A stretch of DNA of 64,000 nucleotides from Sporosarcina sp. (GTDB lineage Bacteria > Bacillota > Bacilli > Bacillales_A > Planococcaceae), in NCBI GenBank assembly GCA_029263895.1, contig JARIDO010000035.1, forward strand, positions 124,001 to 188,000, written 5' to 3'. A model generated the notes under the pieces. It worked only from the letters and a program-made list of their open reading frames with translations. It had not been told where the DNA came from and ran no database searches. Positions 5,965 through 35,592 of the stretch are shown here, piece by piece. Every line of letters starts with the position of its first letter. Position 1 is the stretch's first letter. The position numbers and the translations under genes are program-made.

Positions 5965-6933
5965 TTATTTTTCACCTTGTATCATCGTTTGTAAATATAA
6001 TCCTGCACCCTTTGTGGGATCGTCGACAAACATATGTGTAACCGCCCCTGCAAACTTGCCGTTTTGAATGACAGGACTCCCACTCATACCTTGCAGAATT
6101 CCGCCAGTAAACTCAAGCAATTTTGGATCAGTTAAGACGAATTGAAACTGTTCATTGTCAACTTCGGAAATTTGAATATCGAATTTTTCTACTTTTTTTC
6201 CTTTTACCGTTGTATAGATTTGGGCATCACCCGCAACTACTTCAGTTGATTGCATAATTTCTAACGGTTTAGCCAACACTTCTGTATAAGTGTTATTCCA
6301 AGTTCCGAAAATACCGTAGATCCCATTAGTTTTTATTGTTCCTAGAAAATCTTCGTCATCAACAATGGAAGAAATCTTATAGCCTGGCACACCAGGAACA
6401 CTTTTTTTGATTTGATTTATTTCCGACAAAAAAATGGCACCCTTATTAAAAGATGGTGGTGATTTTAATGCACTATCGATAATTTGATGTCCTAAAGCAC
6501 CGTAAGTTTTTTTATGTGGATCAACATACGTTAATGTACCTGTTCCTTCAGTTCGGTCCTTTAGGAATGGAATGAGACGTTTTATGGATTCTTTATCCAC
6601 GCTTAAATTACTTTCATTACCATTTCGAATAACGTCCAAATCGTGATGCGTTTTTTCTTGTGTTAATGAAAGTATTTTTTCTAAATCTGCTAACGTTTTT
6701 ATTTCTTTACTGTCGACTTGTTCAATTAAATCTCCGGCCATTAACCACTTGTCATCTCCAATCGAGACATCGTTAGTGATGAAAATGCCTGTCAAATCCA
6801 TATGAATTCCAATGGATTGTCCCATGGGGATTAGTGTCTTAGAATTAGCCATCGCTGTTAACTGTGCAAAAGGCATGAACACCAGCAAGAGAGCAATTGT
6901 GACAGTTATTTTGAGTTGCCTACTCCATCCCAT
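5965..6933 (-). CDS. spoIVB: SpoIVB, S55 serine peptidase of the sigma-K checkpoint
   Basis: 322 residues, about 100 shorter than the B. subtilis protein. An N-terminal membrane/signal segment (about 8-28), a PDZ-like domain (about 38-115), then the S55 peptidase: His149 in YGALGHQ, Asp269 in VLTDPKLL, Ser285 in GMSGSPV. In the family it is secreted from the forespore and cleaves SpoIVFA to trigger sigma-K activation in the mother cell. The ATG has an excellent AAGGAGGTG site. The shortening is mostly in the N-terminal half; the catalytic triad is intact. Confidence 0.93.
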   Translation of the reverse strand: MGWSRQLKITVTIALLLVFMPFAQLTAMANSKTLIPMGQSIGIHMDLTGIFITNDVSIGDDKWLMAGDLIEQVDSKEIKTLADLEKILSLTQEKTHHDLDVIRNGNESNLSVDKESIKRLIPFLKDRTEGTGTLTYVDPHKKTYGALGHQIIDSALKSPPSFNKGAIFLSEINQIKKSVPGVPGYKISSIVDDEDFLGTIKTNGIYGIFGTWNNTYTEVLAKPLEIMQSTEVVAGDAQIYTTVKGKKVEKFDIQISEVDNEQFQFVLTDPKLLEFTGGILQGMSGSPVIQNGKFAGAVTHMFVDDPTKGAGLYLQTMIQGEK

Positions 6934-17865: not shown

Positions 17866-18369
17866 TCAATCTACTTTTACAAGGAAGAGTGGTTGGCCAT
17901 ATTCTACTAACTGCCCATCTTTTACAAGAATTTCAACAATCTCCCCAGAGATTTCTGATTCAATTTCATTAAAAAGTTTCATTGCTTCTACAATACATAC
18001 AATTGATTCTAATGTGATTTTATCACCCTTTTTAACAAAGGCTGGAATGTCTGGTGATGAAGCTGCATAAAAAGTACCGACCATTGGCGATACGATATTT
18101 TTCAAATTGGGATCAGTTGCTGCGTCTACCGAAAGTGCAACTGGCTCTTTTTCACCATTTTGTTCAATTTCTCGTTCAATTAATTGAGATTTCCTATCAG
18201 TTGACACTTCAACAACTTGTTGCGCTTGTTGAGTAGATTCCTCAGTAACTTTCCCCATATTCCCTTTAGTTAACTTTATTTTTGCACCTTCGAATTCGTA
18301 AGAAAATTTTTCGATTGACGATTGATCAATCAGTTTAATGATTTCACGTATTTCTTGAATTTTAAGCAT
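17866..18369 (-). CDS. accB: Biotin carboxyl carrier protein of acetyl-CoA carboxylase
   Basis: 167 residues. Helical N-terminus, Gln/Glu-rich linker (about 55-90), and C-terminal biotinyl domain with the biotinylation motif EAMKLFNEI. First gene of accB–accC–yqhY, 14 bases before accC. ATG 18369 has AGGGGA eight bases upstream; the ATG at 18387 does not. Confidence 0.96.
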
Positions 18370-18465
18370 AACCGATTCCCCTAACATCGTTTTTTAAAGT
18401 TCTTATCCATTTTAGACGTTTTCACTTCATAATGAAATAGAAAATGAATGAATGTATGTAAAATC

Positions 18466-18540: not shown

Positions 18541-19089
18541 TCATAGTCCGTCAGAGAAATCAACTTGCACTTTTTGTGCATCTGCCCAGCTCGTTCTTAC
18601 ATAGTGAATAATTTCATCTGCCTGAGCCTTTGATTGACCTTCTGTCGACAAAACAGTTATCTTTACAATATCTTTTTCCGTTCTAACAAATGCTTCTGGA
18701 TAGCCTAAGGATTTGATTTGTAATTCCATCAAAGCTTCTTCCGTATCTTGTTTGTCCAATAGAGCCATTTCTTCATATGCGCTGTTCTTTTGGACTGCTG
18801 TATAGTCTCCAGAATTAATTTTCGTTGTCAGTTGTTCTTTTAATTTACCGCGCTGATTTCTTACTTCCATTCTCATTTCCTCGAAATTAGCTGCTACTGC
18901 AAATGATACAGGTGTTTTTTCTCCATCTTTTTTTCCTTCTGGATTTTTCTCGGATAGCTTTATCGCATCCCCAAAAATCGTTATTCCATCAAACGGTGTT
19001 GCAGCTTTTTCCTTCAACGTGTAGATAGATATAACAGCAACTAAACTTAGTAATGTTAAAAACCACACAGTTCTTTTATTCGTTTTCAT
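18541..19089 (-). CDS. spoIIIAH: SpoIIIAH, mother-cell engulfment channel protein
   Basis: 182 residues, about 35 shorter than in B. subtilis. One N-terminal transmembrane segment (about 8-25), a variable linker, then the YscJ/FliF-like ring-building domain (about 75-180, SGDYTAVQKNSAYEEMALLDKQDTEEALMELQIKSLGYPEAFV). In the family it pairs with forespore SpoIIQ across the engulfment septum. It overlaps spoIIIAG by 14 bases. Confidence 0.92.
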   Translation of the reverse strand: MKTNKRTVWFLTLLSLVAVISIYTLKEKAATPFDGITIFGDAIKLSEKNPEGKKDGEKTPVSFAVAANFEEMRMEVRNQRGKLKEQLTTKINSGDYTAVQKNSAYEEMALLDKQDTEEALMELQIKSLGYPEAFVRTEKDIVKITVLSTEGQSKAQADEIIHYVRTSWADAQKVQVDFSDGL

Positions 19090-19498
19090 TAGTAATCCCC
19101 CTTTTCTTCATTTCGACAATGACGATACGATGTTCTGGAAGTTGGAGAACGACTGATAGGATACGTGATAATTCACTCCTAACTTTCAAATCCTCAGCAC
19201 CTTCAGCAATTACAAGTATTCCTTTTAACTGATTTTGTTTCTTAGAAGTGCTTGTTATAGAAAAGTAATCAGTTAGGGGTTTTTGCGCTGCATTTTCATC
19301 AAAATGTAAATATAATGCAACTTCCCCAATCCCTTTGATTTTCATTAATGTCTTCTCCAATTGTTGCACTTCACTTAATTCAACATCGTCTCCTTTCTTA
19401 GTTCCAAAACTACTCATACCGGAATTGATGAAAATGATAACTACTACAATAGTTATTCCTAACAAAATTGTTTGAATTTTCTTTGAAGGTTTCTGCAT
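19076..19498 (-). CDS. spoIIIAG: SpoIIIAG, short form
   Basis: 140 residues against about 229 in B. subtilis. N-terminal transmembrane helix (about 10-27), then a single ring-building-motif-like domain containing EVQQLEKTLMKIKGIGEVALYLHFDE and a C-terminal RVLQLPEHRIVIVEMKK-like strand. SpoIIIAG builds the large ring of the feeding-tube complex. The long insert of the B. subtilis protein is missing here, although the frame is intact. Confidence 0.85.
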   Translation of the reverse strand: MQKPSKKIQTILLGITIVVVIIFINSGMSSFGTKKGDDVELSEVQQLEKTLMKIKGIGEVALYLHFDENAAQKPLTDYFSITSTSKKQNQLKGILVIAEGAEDLKVRSELSRILSVVLQLPEHRIVIVEMKKRGITNENE

Positions 19499-19563
19499 AT
19501 TATCACCATTTCCGCTAATAGCGTCAGTTCTTAACTGTCATCAATGAATCATTTTATGCTTTT

Positions 19564-19742
19564 TCAATTGAAACTATGCCCTAAAAACATCATAATTCCT
19601 CTAATTATCCAAATTGCCATTAATAACTTAATAATCGGTAATAGATCTTGCTGACTATTGTCCGGGAGGATAAGTAAAAGTGTAGAAGATAATAAAGAAA
19701 TTAATAGAACACCTATTAAAAAGACTCCATAACACTCATCAT
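19564..19742 (-). pseudogene. spoIIIAF: spoIIIAF remnant: frameshifted and C-terminally truncated
   Basis: An ATG at 19742 overlaps the spoIIIAE stop (ATGA), where spoIIIAF should start, and reads MMSVMESF before TAA within a T5 run (19718-19722). One more T would join it to an open frame with two hydrophobic helices (LIGVLLISLLSSTLLLILPDN...LLMAIWIIRGIMMFLG) resembling the SpoIIIAF N-terminus. That frame stops at 19564 after roughly 60 residues, and only 65 bases remain before spoIIIAG, so the soluble C-terminal domain (over 100 residues) is absent. Translation could otherwise begin at a TTG at 19749, which has no ribosome site. A sequencing error would explain the frameshift but not the truncation. 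Confidence 0.6.
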
Positions 19743-20638
19743 CTCGCAATCGTGAATAGTTTAATAATAATGACAGAAAAGAGAGCTGTATAAATAAAAG
19801 CAAAAGAAATTAAGAACGAAATAGCGCAAAGTACAAACAGTGTTTTACCAATGTCGTCCATGATGCCTGTAATATCTCCGTGTGCAAAAGGTTCAATAAT
19901 TGCCGCAGTCCATCTATAAAAAAAAGCGGTTAGCAACGTTTTGAGTGAAGGGACTAATGCAACCGTCCATATGGTTGTTATAAGCCATCCTCCTGCGAAA
20001 ATACTTACCCCAGAAGAATAACGTCCAATCGTTCCCATACTTTCAGTTACAAAAGAACCGATAAGTGGCACGTTTTGACTAATTAATTCTTTAAGTGGTT
20101 CACTTGTTAAACCAGATAATGCCCAGGACATTGTTCCACCAGCTGTTATGAATATAGAATAGGCAGCAACAATTGCTGATACAGCTCCAAGAAGAGTTGT
20201 CCTAATTAGTTCTGACATTTTGGTCAATGAAACTTCTGGTAATATTCTTGAAGATAAATCGAATACAAATGTAGCTGTTAGTAAAGGTATAAGAATCTGT
20301 TGTGCAAAGACAACTGCACCATTTGCGAAAAGCAACATACTCGGTTGAAAGTTCAACATACTAAACGCTCCACCAGACGCCACCATCGCCGCAGTTAAAA
20401 TAGGATAAACCGAAATGAACATCATTGAAATGGAGTTTGCTAAATCCCTTATTAAAATCAAATGATCGAATGCGGGTTGTAATACGACCGTTACTACAAT
20501 GAAAAGCATTATCATTCTTGTCCATTTAGAGAATGACGGAAATAGAAAATCAACAATTAAAGCTAGTAGAACTGAAATGATTACAATGATAAAACTTGAA
20601 ATGACCCCTCCGAGAACCGTTTCAACTAAAGACATCAT
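19739..20638 (-). CDS. spoIIIAE: SpoIIIAE, N-terminally short polytopic membrane protein
   Basis: 299 residues against about 399 in B. subtilis. The polytopic membrane core is kept (six or more hydrophobic segments, e.g. 11-33, 40-58, 72-90, 150-170, 215-235, 270-295, with GGWLITTIWTVALVPSLKTLLTAFFYRWTAAIIEPF). The signal peptide and N-terminal extracytoplasmic region of the family are missing. No upstream in-frame continuation is possible because spoIIIAD ends 14 bases before. Part of the spoIIIA feeding-tube complex. Confidence 0.85.
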   Translation of the reverse strand: MMSLVETVLGGVISSFIIVIISVLLALIVDFLFPSFSKWTRMIMLFIVVTVVLQPAFDHLILIRDLANSISMMFISVYPILTAAMVASGGAFSMLNFQPSMLLFANGAVVFAQQILIPLLTATFVFDLSSRILPEVSLTKMSELIRTTLLGAVSAIVAAYSIFITAGGTMSWALSGLTSEPLKELISQNVPLIGSFVTESMGTIGRYSSGVSIFAGGWLITTIWTVALVPSLKTLLTAFFYRWTAAIIEPFAHGDITGIMDDIGKTLFVLCAISFLISFAFIYTALFSVIIIKLFTIAR

Positions 20639-20652
20639 GTAGGCTCATCCAT

Positions 20653-21030
20653 TCAATTTTTAATAAGAGTAGAAAGAAATTCTATAATTGTAGATGTGTA
20701 TTGTAGCCACATTGTCAATATTGAAATCTTAATAGCGAAATGACTGATTGTCGAAAGAGAACCGTATCCCGCTTCTTTTAACTGTTGTGCGATAACTTCT
20801 GAAATGAAGAGGATAATCGCACTTCCGACAAGCAATTTAGAAAACGGTTCAGGTATAGCATCAAAAAGACTGATGATTCTTAAACCAAATGGAAAAACAA
20901 TAGTTGTCAGAAAATACAATAAAAAATAACTGAAGATTGCTATATACAGTAAAGGATGAAGTTTAGGCGTTGCAAATGAAATACTTAACAATAGGAGAAC
21001 GAGAACGATAACTTGAAATAATGTAATCAT
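20653..21030 (-). CDS. spoIIIAD: SpoIIIAD membrane protein
   Basis: 125 residues with four hydrophobic segments; the motif region ISEVIAQQLKEAGYGSLSTISHFAIKISILTMWL resembles the family's conserved stretch. The ATG at 21030 shares its A with the spoIIIAC stop (TAATG), indicating coupling; an in-frame ATG at 21051 is less likely. Confidence 0.85.
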   Translation of the reverse strand: MITLFQVIVLVLLLLSISFATPKLHPLLYIAIFSYFLLYFLTTIVFPFGLRIISLFDAIPEPFSKLLVGSAIILFISEVIAQQLKEAGYGSLSTISHFAIKISILTMWLQYTSTIIEFLSTLIKN

Positions 21031-21239
21031 TAAACGGACATAGATAACCATTGGAAGAATTCAGCGATTTCAGTGAAAAAGATTTTCAAAAATCGAATCA
21101 TCTCAACAGTAATATAAATGTATGCGATAAAAAAAAGGAAAAACGAAAACTCTTTTTTTCCTGTTTGTTCAAAAAAAATGTGCAATAAACCTATTACTAA
21201 ACCGATACCGGCAACCCGTAACAGATCATTAAGTTCCAT
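21030..21239 (-). CDS. spoIIIAC: SpoIIIAC membrane protein, first gene of the reduced operon
   Basis: 69 residues, normal length, two transmembrane helices; contains VAGIGLVIGLLHIFFEQTGKKEFSFF, which matches the family pattern (GIG..V.....L...GKKEYA). In other spore-formers spoIIIAA (ATPase) and spoIIIAB precede it. Here it comes straight after a sigma-E-like promoter and the efp terminator. Ribosome site GGGGGGAG. Confidence 0.9.
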   Translation of the reverse strand: MELNDLLRVAGIGLVIGLLHIFFEQTGKKEFSFFLFFIAYIYITVEMIRFLKIFFTEIAEFFQWLSMSV

Positions 21240-21262
21240 CCGCTACTCCCCCCAATACCTTA

Positions 21263-21291
21263 ATACTATGTTGAACCTAACAAGAATATGA
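21263..21291 (-). promoter_or_regulatory. Sigma-E-like promoter of the spoIIIA operon
   Basis: On the minus strand TCATATT (21285-21291) and CATAGTAT (21263-21270) are 14 bp apart, close to the sigma-E elements (ATATT / CATACAnT). It lies 24 bases before the spoIIIAC start. B. subtilis spoIIIA is sigma-E dependent, so the promoter seems to have stayed while the first two genes were lost. Confidence 0.6.
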
Positions 21292-21331
21292 AAAAGCACA
21301 TTACGAGTTAGTAAACTCGTAATGTGCTTTT
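21292..21331 (-). terminator. efp terminator
   Basis: Perfect 18-bp stem AAAAGCACATTACGAGTT with its complement and a 4-base loop. It separates efp from the spoIIIA promoter, which begins right next to it. Confidence 0.88.
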
Positions 21332-21376
21332 AGTAAGTGTTAAATATTGAAAGCTTGATTGTCCATTGCAGTGTGA

Positions 21377-21934
21377 TTATGCTCTAGAAACATATTCACC
21401 TTCTGTAGTATTGATGATTAACTTGTCCCCAATGTTTATAAAGAATGGTACTTGTACAGTTAAACCAGTTTCCATTTTAGCTGGTTTAGAGCCACCACTT
21501 GCAGTGTCACCTTTAATGCCTGGCTCCGTTTCTGCAACTTCTAATACGACTGTAACTGGTAGTTCTACACCTAGCACTTCTTCTTTGTATTGGATAATGT
21601 GTACTTCCATATTTTCTTTAAGGTATTTTAATTCTTCTTCAATTTGTTTTTCTGGAAGTTCGATTTGTTCGTAAGATTCATTATCCATGAATACATGCTC
21701 ATCGCCATTCGCATATAGATACTGCATACGTTTATTATCGATTTGAGCTTTCGCAACTTTTTCGCCAGCGCGAAACGTTTTTTCGTTTACGTTTCCTGAA
21801 CGAAGGTTTCTTAGTTTTGAGCGAACGAAAGCCGCACCTTTACCAGGCTTTACGTGTTGGAAATCCATCACACGCCATATATCACCATCTACCTCTATTG
21901 TTAAGCCCGTTTTAAAATCATTTACTGAAATCAT
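21377..21934 (-). CDS. efp: Translation elongation factor P
   Basis: 185 residues, three beta-barrel domains. Domain I has the loop [17 protein letters not shown] with Lys32 at the modification position; the C-terminus has the [29 protein letters not shown] signature. It relieves ribosome stalling at polyproline. It lies 23 bases after the peptidase gene and ends with its own terminator. Confidence 0.97.
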
Positions 21935-32171: not shown

Positions 32172-32455
32172 TTTTCTACCTCGTTATTATGTCTGGCATA
32201 TGTCACACAAATAGTGTGTTCAGTGTAAGTCCATTCATAGAAAGTACGACCCACTTGACGCCTCCCGTTTAATTCCCCTTTATTTTTATGCAAAATTGCA
32301 CCTTGAAACGCTGTTTCTGCAGCTATCATTGCTAACTTTTTCTCTTCAAGTTTTGTCGTTAATGACGAAGAAAAAGGAATTAGTGTTCCAAAAACAACCA
32401 TTATTATCGTTAGTGTCAACATCGCTTCTGGCCAAGAATATCCTTTTTCATTCAT
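32150..32455 (-). CDS. comGE: Competence minor pseudopilin ComGE
   Basis: 101 residues with a pilin-like N-terminus (NEKGYSWPEAMLTLTIIMVVFGTLIPF) in which W-P replaces the usual T-L before the Glu. The position between comGD and comGF supports the call. ATG 32455 follows AGGA. Overlaps both neighbours. Confidence 0.75.
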   Translation of the reverse strand: MNEKGYSWPEAMLTLTIIMVVFGTLIPFSSSLTTKLEEKKLAMIAAETAFQGAILHKNKGELNGRRQVGRTFYEWTYTEHTICVTYARHNNEVEKCISHEN

Positions 32456-32924
32456 ATATAATAATCCTGCCTCGTACAAGTTGAAAGCGAATTTCTAAAA
32501 TTTGAGTGTTTAAATTAAATGCCATGACGCCAGATTTTAATATGTTACCATTCGGCAAAAACTCAACGACTCTCATATTAGAATGATTGGAAAGTCTCAT
32601 ATCTTGCTGGAATGATCCACTACAAATAATTTCAAATCCGCTAGCTATTGAAGCGGCATATGTTGTACCGTTATTTTTAAACACTAGTTTAGAAGATACG
32701 TTATGAGCCATGGAGTAGGTTTGCATATTATACACACACGAAACAAAGCTATTTAAGTTATCCTTTTCTATCTTTTCTTTAAACCATCGATTCCCCAGTG
32801 GTAAAATAATTAAAGTTAAAAGTGACACTACTCCTAAAACAAGTACTAACTCAATAAAGGTAAAACCAAATGGATTATTTATGATTCTATTTGCTCTACT
32901 TACCTTCAATAAATTATGGGGCAT
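32448..32924 (-). CDS. comGD: Competence pseudopilin ComGD
   Basis: 158 residues. Pilin motif FGFTFIELVLVLGVVSLLTLIILPL, then a beta-rich region ending in VRGRIIIYE. Here the motif starts about 17 residues in. The ATG at 32924 overlaps the comGC stop; other in-frame starts upstream exist inside comGC, so the start is uncertain. Confidence 0.85.
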   Translation of the reverse strand: MPHNLLKVSRANRIINNPFGFTFIELVLVLGVVSLLTLIILPLGNRWFKEKIEKDNLNSFVSCVYNMQTYSMAHNVSSKLVFKNNGTTYAASIASGFEIICSGSFQQDMRLSNHSNMRVVEFLPNGNILKSGVMAFNLNTQILEIRFQLVRGRIIIYE

Positions 32925-33216
32925 CCACTTTACCCGAATCTGATATAGTGATTTTTTTCCCATTCGGACACGCTGGATTTTCTGTTAAATATGAATCTGC
33001 GACTAACTCCCCTACGGTAGGTACTCTATTATTATCAATTTTATAAGCTTCTACTTGGCCCTGAACCATTTGTACATAGGCTTTACAACCTTTTTTATCA
33101 ATTGTTTGAGAATGCTTCGTCACATTTGGTATTGCGATCAAAATCAAAACGGAGATTATTAAAAGTACAATCATCATTTCGATAAGAGTAAAACCATCTT
33201 CATTCATCGTTTTCAA
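32914..33216 (-). CDS. comGC: Major competence pseudopilin ComGC
   Basis: 100 residues. Prepilin signature with G-FTLIEMMIVLLIISVLILIAIPN, then KGCKAYVQMVQGQVEAY and a second Cys (NPACPNGK) for the family's disulfide. Major subunit of the transformation pseudopilus. TTG start seven bases after AAGGAGGGG; the ATG three codons later is also possible. Confidence 0.95.
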   Translation of the reverse strand: MKTMNEDGFTLIEMMIVLLIISVLILIAIPNVTKHSQTIDKKGCKAYVQMVQGQVEAYKIDNNRVPTVGELVADSYLTENPACPNGKKITISDSGKVDAP

Positions 33217-33230
33217 ATTTAAACCCCTCC

Positions 33231-34298
33231 TTAAAATTGATCCATCATCCTATAAACAGGTAACAATAAAGCTAAATACGCAGCTAATATGCAAATTGCT
33301 ATAATCGAAAAGAGTATTGGCTGGATCATGTTGAATACTTTGGACAATTTCTCATCAATGCTTGTTGTTAAATGATTGCTATAGAGTAGTAGTTCTTTCG
33401 CTAGATACCCACTATTTTCTCCGTGTTTCACAAAACGAAAAAATAATTTTGTGAAACCTGGTGTAATTTGTACTGCTGCATGAAATTCATCACCAAAAAT
33501 AATACGTTCTTTTATGTTTTGTGCCATAGTACTAATCACACCATCTTGTTGTTGCGTAATTAAAACTTCTAATGCGTTTTGTATAGATAGACCACTATTT
33601 AATAGACTGCCGAGTTCACTTGCGAAGTCTCGTGTTCTAAACATGGGGAAAAAGCTCTTCAATACAGGTATTTTTAACATTAATTCGATTTGGTTAAGCG
33701 GACTAGTATTTTTAAGTCTATACAGAATGATGGACGAGATTACGACGGTTAAAATCAAAAGACCAAGTAAAACATCCGGTATTCTCGTAACTAATGATGG
33801 TAAAAGGTCAATAATGCTAGTACTTGTAGCCGGGCGGGAACTTGCTAGCAATTCTAAATTGGGTAAGAAATATTCTTTAAATGAGAGTAATAAAGCTGAA
33901 ATAAAAAACAGCAATATGAATGGATAAGCAAGAATACTCATTAATTTTTTTTTACGTTCTCCCCTTTTTAGAATTCGCATTGCAAGGCTATTTAAAGCAT
34001 CTGCTAAAGTCCCATCAATTTCTGCAATCGCTATTGGAAGTAAATCATCGGGAGAAAAACCCAAATTCTCGAAGATTTTAGTTGGTCCAAAGCCACTCTT
34101 AAAATCCACTAGCAACTGTTTTTCAATTGTCTCGTATTGACTACAGTGGTGAGGTATTAATAATCGTAAACTCTCTTCAAATGTATAGCCTTCAATTAAT
34201 AATTCAGATAGCTTTTTCAAAAAGTCTGCTTGATTATTAATCTTTTTTTTATTGGTGTTGTAAAGGATGGGAAATGTATTATTCAATTCTGGAGGCAT
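33231..34298 (-). CDS. comGB: Competence membrane protein ComGB
   Basis: About 355 residues. GspF/PilC family with two related halves (about 30-160 and 220-350), and transmembrane helices around 120-145, 180-200 and at the C-terminus. Platform protein for pseudopilus assembly. Overlaps comGA by 20 bases; start choice (ATG 34298) is tentative. Confidence 0.9.
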   Translation of the reverse strand: MPPELNNTFPILYNTNKKKINNQADFLKKLSELLIEGYTFEESLRLLIPHHCSQYETIEKQLLVDFKSGFGPTKIFENLGFSPDDLLPIAIAEIDGTLADALNSLAMRILKRGERKKKLMSILAYPFILLFFISALLLSFKEYFLPNLELLASSRPATSTSIIDLLPSLVTRIPDVLLGLLILTVVISSIILYRLKNTSPLNQIELMLKIPVLKSFFPMFRTRDFASELGSLLNSGLSIQNALEVLITQQQDGVISTMAQNIKERIIFGDEFHAAVQITPGFTKLFFRFVKHGENSGYLAKELLLYSNHLTTSIDEKLSKVFNMIQPILFSIIAICILAAYLALLLPVYRMMDQF

Positions 34299-35286
34299 CC
34301 TGTAGCCTGTATTTTTGAACGAGAGTACCAATTGCTATATCTTTTGATCTTGTTATTTTTTCTCCTCTTGCAATACTATCTATGATAAGTTCTACTTGAT
34401 TTTCTTCAATGATTTCAAAAACAGCTTTTGTATTTCCATTCGGATTACTGATGATACGTTGTGTTGATATACATACTACTGTTTGACGTAATTCTTCTAA
34501 TGTAATGCCGAAATCCATCATTCTATATAAACTTCCGATTGGATCTTTTGAATGCACCGTTGTTAAAACGAGATGGCCTGTTAAGGAAGCTTGAATAGCA
34601 ATTTGCGCTGTTTCTCTATCTCTTATCTCCCCTATCATAATGACATCAGGAGAATGACGTAAAATTGCTTTTAAGCCGGAAGAATAACTTATCCCGGATT
34701 GCTCATTTACTTGTACTTGCAATAAATGCCGAAGATTATTTTCAACTGGATCTTCGAGTGAAATGACTTGTCGATTTAATTCATTTACACAGTAAGCGGT
34801 TAATGAATAAATTGTCGTTGTCTTCCCAGAACCTGTAGGTCCTGTCAACAAAACAAGACCTTGTTCATTGGCTACAGCTATCCGTAACTTTTCTGACCAT
34901 TCTTTTTCAAAACAAAGCTTGTCCAGATTAATAATCCGATTATGTTTTTGAATACGAATGACAACACTCTCCTTTAAATGAATTGAAGGGATTGTTGAGA
35001 CACGAAAAGAATAGTTTTCATTAAAAATCTGTTTATGGAACGAACCGCTTTGTGGTGTTCTTTTCACACTGATATCAAGTGAGGATAAGTACTTATAAAA
35101 AGAAATCATACGAATCACTAGTTGTGGAGTTATGTTAGTAAAATGAGTTAATCTTGAATGGATTTTGAAAGAAACGTTATAGCTATCTTTTGTTGGAATC
35201 AAATGAATATCCGAAGCGTTAAGATGTATTGCTTTTTGTAATAGTTCAAAACAATTTCGTTCCACAACATTTTTTTCAGTCTGCAT
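34279..35286 (-). CDS. comGA: Competence ATPase ComGA
   Basis: 335 residues. GspE/PilB-family ATPase: N-domain with NASDIHLIP, Walker A GPTGSGKTTT, Asp box and Walker B VIMIGEIRDRETA, and His box TGHLVLTTVHS. No tetracysteine zinc motif is visible. It powers pseudopilus assembly for DNA uptake. First gene of comGA–GG. Confidence 0.95.
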   Translation of the reverse strand: MQTEKNVVERNCFELLQKAIHLNASDIHLIPTKDSYNVSFKIHSRLTHFTNITPQLVIRMISFYKYLSSLDISVKRTPQSGSFHKQIFNENYSFRVSTIPSIHLKESVVIRIQKHNRIINLDKLCFEKEWSEKLRIAVANEQGLVLLTGPTGSGKTTTIYSLTAYCVNELNRQVISLEDPVENNLRHLLQVQVNEQSGISYSSGLKAILRHSPDVIMIGEIRDRETAQIAIQASLTGHLVLTTVHSKDPIGSLYRMMDFGITLEELRQTVVCISTQRIISNPNGNTKAVFEIIEENQVELIIDSIARGEKITRSKDIAIGTLVQKYRLQDASRIE

Positions 35287-35592
35287 ACTTCCTTCCACCT
35301 TCCGAAGTTGACTAAAGTGATACTAATAATTGATGGAAGACCGCTTCACATCTTAACGAAAAGTATAAACTAATAAAAATAAATAAAAACACATTTTCCT
35401 AAAGTCGAATTGTGTAGGGCTATAAACGACCAAAGTCGAATTGTTTAAATGTTTTTGTGCATTATATATACGATTCCTTGTAATACACTTCTTTGTCACA
35501 ATGAAAGCAGGATTTAAGTTTACATCTACAGGTACTATCCTATATAATGAATAGGAGCTTATTGTAATGTTTTATTAAGGAGGGACGCACGC
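35287..35592. promoter_or_regulatory. comGA / yqgY divergent control region with AT-box and direct repeat
   Basis: 306 bases without a gene. One ComK-type AT-box AAAA-N5-TTTT (35385-35397) sits about 100 bases before comGA. Next to it AAAGTCGAATTGT occurs twice exactly (35401-35413 and 35432-35444), 31 bp apart (about three helical turns). Each copy contains AGTCGAA, one base from the Spo0A box TGTCGAA. I could not place a second AT-box with confidence. Confidence 0.5.

Follow-up and report, generated by a model that had tools for sequence, protein, structure and literature searches.

Can the channel by which the mother cell feeds the developing spore do without its ATPase? In Bacillus subtilis this channel, the SpoIIIA-SpoIIQ complex (A-Q, or feeding tube), is thought to be powered by the SpoIIIAA ATPase, and SpoIIIAH binds the SpoIIQ of the forespore side. 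It has long been asked what the complex moves and whether ATP drives it as a secretion machine. We analyzed a stretch of 64,000 nucleotides (nt) from a Sporosarcina-type genome (assembly GCA_029263895.1, contig JARIDO010000035.1, positions 124,001 to 188,000; hereafter the window) whose spoIIIA operon starts at spoIIIAC. The original prediction, made from the DNA letters alone, had offered two readings of this operon, a lineage losing sporulation or a minimal feeding tube; our analysis favored the second and spoke against the first. The operon is real and most likely not decaying, and we consider it probable that the working spoIIIA operon of its family, Planococcaceae/Caryophanaceae, normally looks like this and would encode a streamlined mother-cell half of the A-Q complex, a channel or clamp without a dedicated ATP motor.

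Gene content of the operon

Reading of the open reading frames (ORFs) and the sequence of the window gave efp, then a terminator and a sigma-E-like promoter, and after these spoIIIAC-AD-AE-AF-AG-AH, accB and accC, in this order along the minus strand (the genes and proteins are shortened to AA to AH below; operon coordinates are window positions on the minus strand). AC, AD, AE, AG and AH were collinear between efp and accB, the arrangement of an operon, and were open frames with profile matches, as had been predicted. AC (69 amino acids [aa], 21030..21239) matched TIGR02848 with an E-value of 5.5e-07 and 30 bits, and fell narrowly under the Pfam cut-off for PF06686 (22.9 bits against 24). AD (132 aa, 20653..21051) matched PF06686 with 28 bits, AE (299 aa, 19739..20638) matched PF09546 with 96.9 bits and its NCBIfam model with 75.5 bits, AG (140 aa, 19076..19498) matched TIGR02830 with 48.9 bits, and AH (182 aa, 18541..19089) matched PF12685 with 56.4 bits. 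The NCBIfam matches for AC, AE and AG were all under their curated cut-offs while the Pfam matches for AD, AE and AH were above theirs. A short frame of 61 aa (19564..19749), here called mini-AF, lay between AE and AG; its TTG start codon overlaps the stop codon of AE.

Absence of SpoIIIAA and SpoIIIAB

The window encoded neither AA nor AB, as predicted, and neither was found elsewhere in its own genome (2.31 Mb, 51 contigs, 78.95% complete), AB giving no match at all. We also searched 81 genomes of the family from 19 genera, of which 77 are given as at least 99% complete. No AA match above the cut-off and no AB was found in any of the 81, and both were detected in the B. subtilis control. The weak AA matches of the family reached no more than 29.1 bits, and the best of them, the sole one identified, was Rho and not SpoIIIAA; the ComGA protein of the window scored 19 bits on the AA profile.

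The loss of AA and AB is a published trait of spore-forming Planococcaceae, already in 2021. PMC7924749 described spore-forming Planococcaceae and Lysinibacillus without SpoIIIAA, SpoIIIAB, SpoIIIAF, SpoIIM, SpoIIB and GerM, and left the mechanism to be elucidated. In its table Sporosarcina has AC, AD, AE, AG, AH and SpoIIQ; SpoIIIAD is listed as missing in five species, and one passage names SpoIIIAG as missing. In another study (PMC3533761), Lysinibacillus sphaericus C3-41 is listed as having lost AA, AB, AD, AF, gerM, spoIIM and others, and the genome was judged unreliable because of the missing genes.

Distribution in the class Bacilli and phylogeny

AE was present in 176 of 249 Bacilli genomes, 15 inside the family and 161 outside it. 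AA was detected in 162 at E-values up to 1e-20 (158 above the curated cut-off), AB in 162 and full-length AF (PF09581) in 161, with no family member among any of them. When compared genome by genome, each of the 161 AE carriers not belonging to the family had AA, AB and full AF together and none of the 15 inside it did; no intermediate operon state was seen in this class sample. These counts, like the AA count in the 81 genomes, come from a part of the first-look candidates: for AA in the 81 genomes at most 26 of the 34 in any one genome and, in the 249-genome set, nine per genome for AA and at most eight and 13 for AE and AB. One fragmented genome (G120) gave AA and AB without AE and AF, and the non-Bacillus control Thermus composti also matched in the AA search at E-values up to 1e-20.

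In an AE tree of 76 rows, which carried a long-branch warning, all family AE lay on one side of a long branch with a support of 100/99. Ten of the 12 listed groups were single clades; the other two, genera g10 and g19, were not because of the second operon of genome G053. This genome (87% complete) has two spoIIIA operons (L112 and L076), one of which branches with g10, indicating contamination or transfer. The simplest reading is a single ancient loss that was then passed on vertically.

We also asked whether GerM was lost together with AA and AB. The family had no strong tandem Germane (GerM) matches, with weak ones in 3 of the 15 AE carriers, but 23 of the 161 carriers outside it likewise had no GerM match and yet kept AA and AB, so GerM was rejected as a member of one lost module.

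Conservation across family loci

We compared 67 family loci, at most 66 of them independent since L006 and L124 come from the same genome; G053 gave two loci. AE, AG, AH and accB were found in all 67 in unchanged order. AC was found in 66, the remaining locus beginning inside the operon, and AD was matched by the window query in 48, with an AD-sized frame in place in 18 others. Ten loci in named genomes (eight labeled Sporosarcina, one Filibacter and one Arthrobacter) had AE 68-79% identical. The last of these (L005) comes from a record under the name Arthrobacter beigongshangensis; as its spoIIIA operon is of the Sporosarcina type, the record is probably mislabeled or contaminated.

Among the 81 family genomes, AE was present in 56. 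SpoIVA matches occurred in 59, namely the 56 AE carriers, all with a long open frame, and three genomes of genus g2 with broken copies; SpoIVA was thus absent in 22 and broken in three of the 25 genomes without AE.

AF survives as a membrane hairpin

AF had been predicted to be broken and to have lost its soluble domain. The loss of the domain was borne out; the break was not, as the 61-aa frame is uninterrupted and encodes a two-helix hairpin. The frame between AE and AG matched a 13-seed profile in 67/67 family loci (weakest E-value 5.1e-6), although these E-values are partly circular because 13 of the loci are the seeds and the database consisted of the local fragments, seeds included. In 57 loci an ATG, GTG or TTG was located between -10 and +15 nt relative to the AE stop, giving a mini-AF of 42-61 residues. 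The frames without such a start were in L002, L003, L004, L009 and the g4 loci L101, L104, L105, L108, L110 and L117; these are open and conserved, and may start at an unusual codon or be entered by a frameshift from AE. By hydropathy (10 family and two outgroup proteins), mini-AF had two hydrophobic stretches and a short polar loop, like the first ~50 residues of full AF, and hhalign linked the two with 76.8% and an E-value of 2.1e-5. AF survives as a membrane hairpin under purifying selection, and just its soluble ring-building domain is gone.

Changes in AE, AG and AH

We used 11 outgroup loci (L127-L137), in nine of which AE was found by the window query (none in L134 and L135) and in six of which AF was found by the family profile. 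The predicted lack of about 100 N-terminal residues in AE was confirmed, since the NCBIfam match started at profile position 103 of 381. The 299 residues of the window AE are close to the family median of 303 (n=67; 252-347 when counted from the first start codon); AE in the nine outgroup loci had 391-417 residues, and an alignment of 18 sequences including outgroups agreed with an N-terminal loss.

The AG of the window was short as well, with 140 aa compared to 197-250 aa in six aligned outgroup loci. Between two core strands it had 26 residues (family median 28, range 15-33, n=65), and all six outgroup proteins had 62 residues between the same strands; besides this insertion, a linker was also lost. 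In the B. subtilis SpoIIIAG ring, according to PMC6934232, an insertion inside the ring-building motif makes most of the cup. The AlphaFold model of the window AG had a mean predicted local distance difference test score (pLDDT) of 72 and a predicted template modeling score of 0.54, with two segments below a pLDDT of 50. Residues 91-130 had a pLDDT of 91-94 and the order helix-strand-strand-helix-strand (H-E-E-H-E), which is that of the ring-building motif. The model's neighbors in the PDB were type III secretion inner rings of the PrgK/MxiJ type (four matches with E-values up to 0.001) and the MS ring of the flagellum; SpoIIIAG itself was among them too (5wc3, rank 7, E-value 3.4e-3). AG, a membrane helix followed by this motif, is thus predicted to keep the ring-building fold without the insertion that builds the cup. 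AH was nearly full length, with a median of 180 aa in the family versus 195 aa in the outgroup.

Selection and operon decay

The ratio of nonsynonymous to synonymous substitution rates (dN/dS) was computed by the Nei-Gojobori method in ten genus groups, with pairs of dS 0.05-2.5 only. The group medians were 0.00-0.05 for AC, 0.04-0.12 for AD, 0.025-0.05 for AE, 0.05-0.16 for mini-AF (few pairs in g4), 0.08-0.29 for AG and 0.02-0.22 for AH, and 0.02-0.12 and 0.06-0.24 for the neighbors efp and accB. AC and AE had the lowest values of the operon in most groups. All six operon genes, including the five for which this check had been proposed, are thus under purifying selection.

Genus g2 provided a control for decay. 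One of its genomes (G020, L084) had the whole operon and an intact SpoIVA, with a very long AE branch. In three other species with a broken SpoIVA, only pieces were left, a 55-residue AH piece in G001 (L150), AG and AH pieces in G038 (L151), and AC with an AD piece in G054 (L152). This genus seems to be caught in the act of losing sporulation, and true decay leaves a fragmentary operon. In six further genera, none of the genomes sampled had AE or SpoIVA; in six AE-less genomes (6 of the 22, drawn from six genera other than g2), no operon gene was found between efp and accB at E-values up to 1e-3.

Sporulation partners in the genome

The window's own genome has a row consisting of a murA-like gene, spoIID, spoIIQ, spoIIID, an mbl-like gene and flagellar-type genes (the murA-like, mbl-like and flagellar-type assignments by reading). 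SpoIID, SpoIIQ and SpoIIID were open frames, and SpoIID scored above its cut-off. The partner SpoIIQ is present (221 aa, L159:2869-3534), with NF053738 as the best model (185.9 bits, cut-off 250 bits); SpoIIID likewise matched its own model best, with 93.8 bits (cut-off 111.5). SpoIVA was present as well, and the window itself encodes Spo0A (354.6 bits, above the cut-off) and SpoIVB (5965-6933, 322 residues, 236.9 bits, cut-off 305). SpoIVB may be N-terminally shortened too, because its match starts at profile position 87.

Flanking genes and promoter

The predicted succession of the efp terminator, a sigma-E-like promoter and AC was upheld. The terminator (21291..21333) is an inverted repeat followed by a T run by direct sequence reading, and the promoter (TCATATT-N14-CATAGTAT, 21263..21291) lies 23 nt before AC with a score of 13/15 against the sigma-E consensus. 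In 66 loci the mean best score was 11.4 versus 9.7 for single-base shuffles, and the best site was 18-30 nt upstream of AC in 51 of them, suggesting that a promoter-like site is conserved across the family. The upstream neighbor efp (21377..21934) is a 185-aa ORF, 74-94% identical to that of the 60 other family loci with an efp match; five AC-bearing loci had no efp match within the stretch examined. Downstream of AH lies accB (17866..18387).

Cryptic AA or AB genes were looked for in all family loci with efp-AC gaps longer than 330 nt and rejected, since no translation resembled either protein. The translations read instead gave a nitronate-monooxygenase-like gene in g13, g14, g18 and one g19 locus, and by reading also upstream in g15; other g19 gaps held a VWA-like gene on the opposite strand, and the remaining long gaps some other frame or nothing of at least 110 aa. 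The nitronate-monooxygenase-like gene (L068, L080, L087, L088 and relatives) occupies the place of AA and AB in other Bacilli.

Discussion

The family ancestor would have lost SpoIIIAA, SpoIIIAB, the soluble domain of SpoIIIAF, the cup insertion of SpoIIIAG and the N-terminal region of SpoIIIAE, while retaining a membrane platform (AC, AD, AE and the mini-AF hairpin), a plain AG ring and AH facing SpoIIQ. We infer that the reduced complex would still assemble and transport; most likely it would bridge and open both forespore membranes and keep the forespore intact, acting as a passive or gradient-driven channel and a structural clamp without ATP hydrolysis by a dedicated motor. That this holds for the spore-formers of the whole family, with a motor-and-cup module lost together in the ancestor and a passive core of AC-AH with SpoIIQ sufficing for an ATPase-free tube, we regard as an even bet.

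Several observations weigh against a working, motor-free operon. The dS values were partly saturated, 10 of the 67 mini-AF frames had no standard start near the AE stop, and the hhalign link to full AF was moderate. SpoIIQ, SpoIIID and SpoIVB all scored under their curated cut-offs, and the own genome is just 79% complete. SpoIIIAA without AC and AE is given for Jeotgalibacillus malaysiensis in PMC7924749, which counts the species in the Planococcaceae, although its genus may lie outside the family sampled here.

The motor may have been replaced, with ComGA or an unrecognized mother-cell ATPase driving the channel in trans. The window does encode ComGA (34279-35298, 331.7 bits to NF041000, above the cut-off), of the same secretion-ATPase superfamily as SpoIIIAA. 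In favor of a substitute, mutations in all four ATPase motifs of B. subtilis SpoIIIAA behave like a deletion (PMC2703783). In Clostridioides difficile a Walker A mutation was severe and a Walker B mutation mild (PMC4605598). However, the interval from efp to AC showed no gene for an ATPase, the likely ATPase partners (AB and the AF soluble domain) were lost too, and ComGA looks like an ordinary competence ATPase, so we consider a replaced motor unlikely. By reading, a comG-like competence cluster spans window positions 32448-35298.

It is also unlikely that there is no channel any more and that the proteins are kept for another job, such as a SpoIIQ-SpoIIIAH zipper aiding engulfment. The parts lost are those resembling secretion machinery (AA and AB) together with the AF and AG extensions, and AH stayed near full length, as such a role would allow. 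Yet AC and AE, which belong to the membrane part and for which a plain zipper has no known need, were the most constrained genes in most groups.

The idea that sporulation is being lost in this lineage, with the short operon as a stage of decay, fared worse and appears improbable. It could draw on the loss in the sister genus g2, on the six genera without AE and SpoIVA, and on Filibacter (L006/L124), which is not known to form spores and has the same operon. But the same reduced set was present in 56/56 AE carriers, its frames were open with low dN/dS where real decay left fragments, and it has been reported from spore-forming species in PMC7924749. An assembly or binning artefact, which the 51 contigs and 79% completeness might suggest and which had been raised as a possible error at 21.24-21.38 kb, is very unlikely and hardly worth entertaining, given that the short efp-AC gaps (105-290 base pairs) recur in other assemblies of g1, g2, g3, g5, g10 and g11, and that the same arrangement is found in another 66 loci of the family, of which several come from single-contig assemblies.

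The preferred reading, a working operon without a motor, makes the family a natural experiment and provides a minimal part list for the A-Q complex. Because its spore-formers kept the core and lost the ATPase, the need for an ATP-driven channel becomes directly testable. That the ATPase, AB, the AF soluble domain, the AG cup and the AE N-terminus are missing together suggests a separable module, with AC and AE still strongly selected. The Erysipelotrichia, in which PMC7924749 likewise saw no gain of AA, AB and AF, may be a second case. Surveys of presence and absence overlooked a protein of 42-61 residues, and a checklist of eight spoIIIA genes would misclassify these genomes as incomplete. 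PMC7924749 never uses the stem 'truncat' in its main text, and we found no mention of the family's short AF, cup-less AG or shortened AE, or of the decay control, in literature search listings that covered neither subscription papers nor supplements.

Compared to the A-Q complex of B. subtilis, the family operon has the same AC-AD-AE-AF-AG-AH order between efp and accB, a sigma-E-like promoter, a forespore-side SpoIIQ and the predicted ring-building fold of AG in common, and it differs by the absence of the AA ATPase, AB, the AF soluble domain, the AE N-terminal region and the AG cup insertion. The reduced sets described in PMC7924749 and PMC3533761 come from the same family and likewise miss AA, AB and AF, although AF was scored as absent there and is a hairpin here. 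The A-Q complex of C. difficile is likewise simplified, in that case without GerM and SpoIIIL (PMC6934232), and the Walker B motif of its SpoIIIAA counts for little (PMC4605598); unlike the family operon, its operon runs from spoIIIAA to spoIIIAH and its Walker A motif matters.

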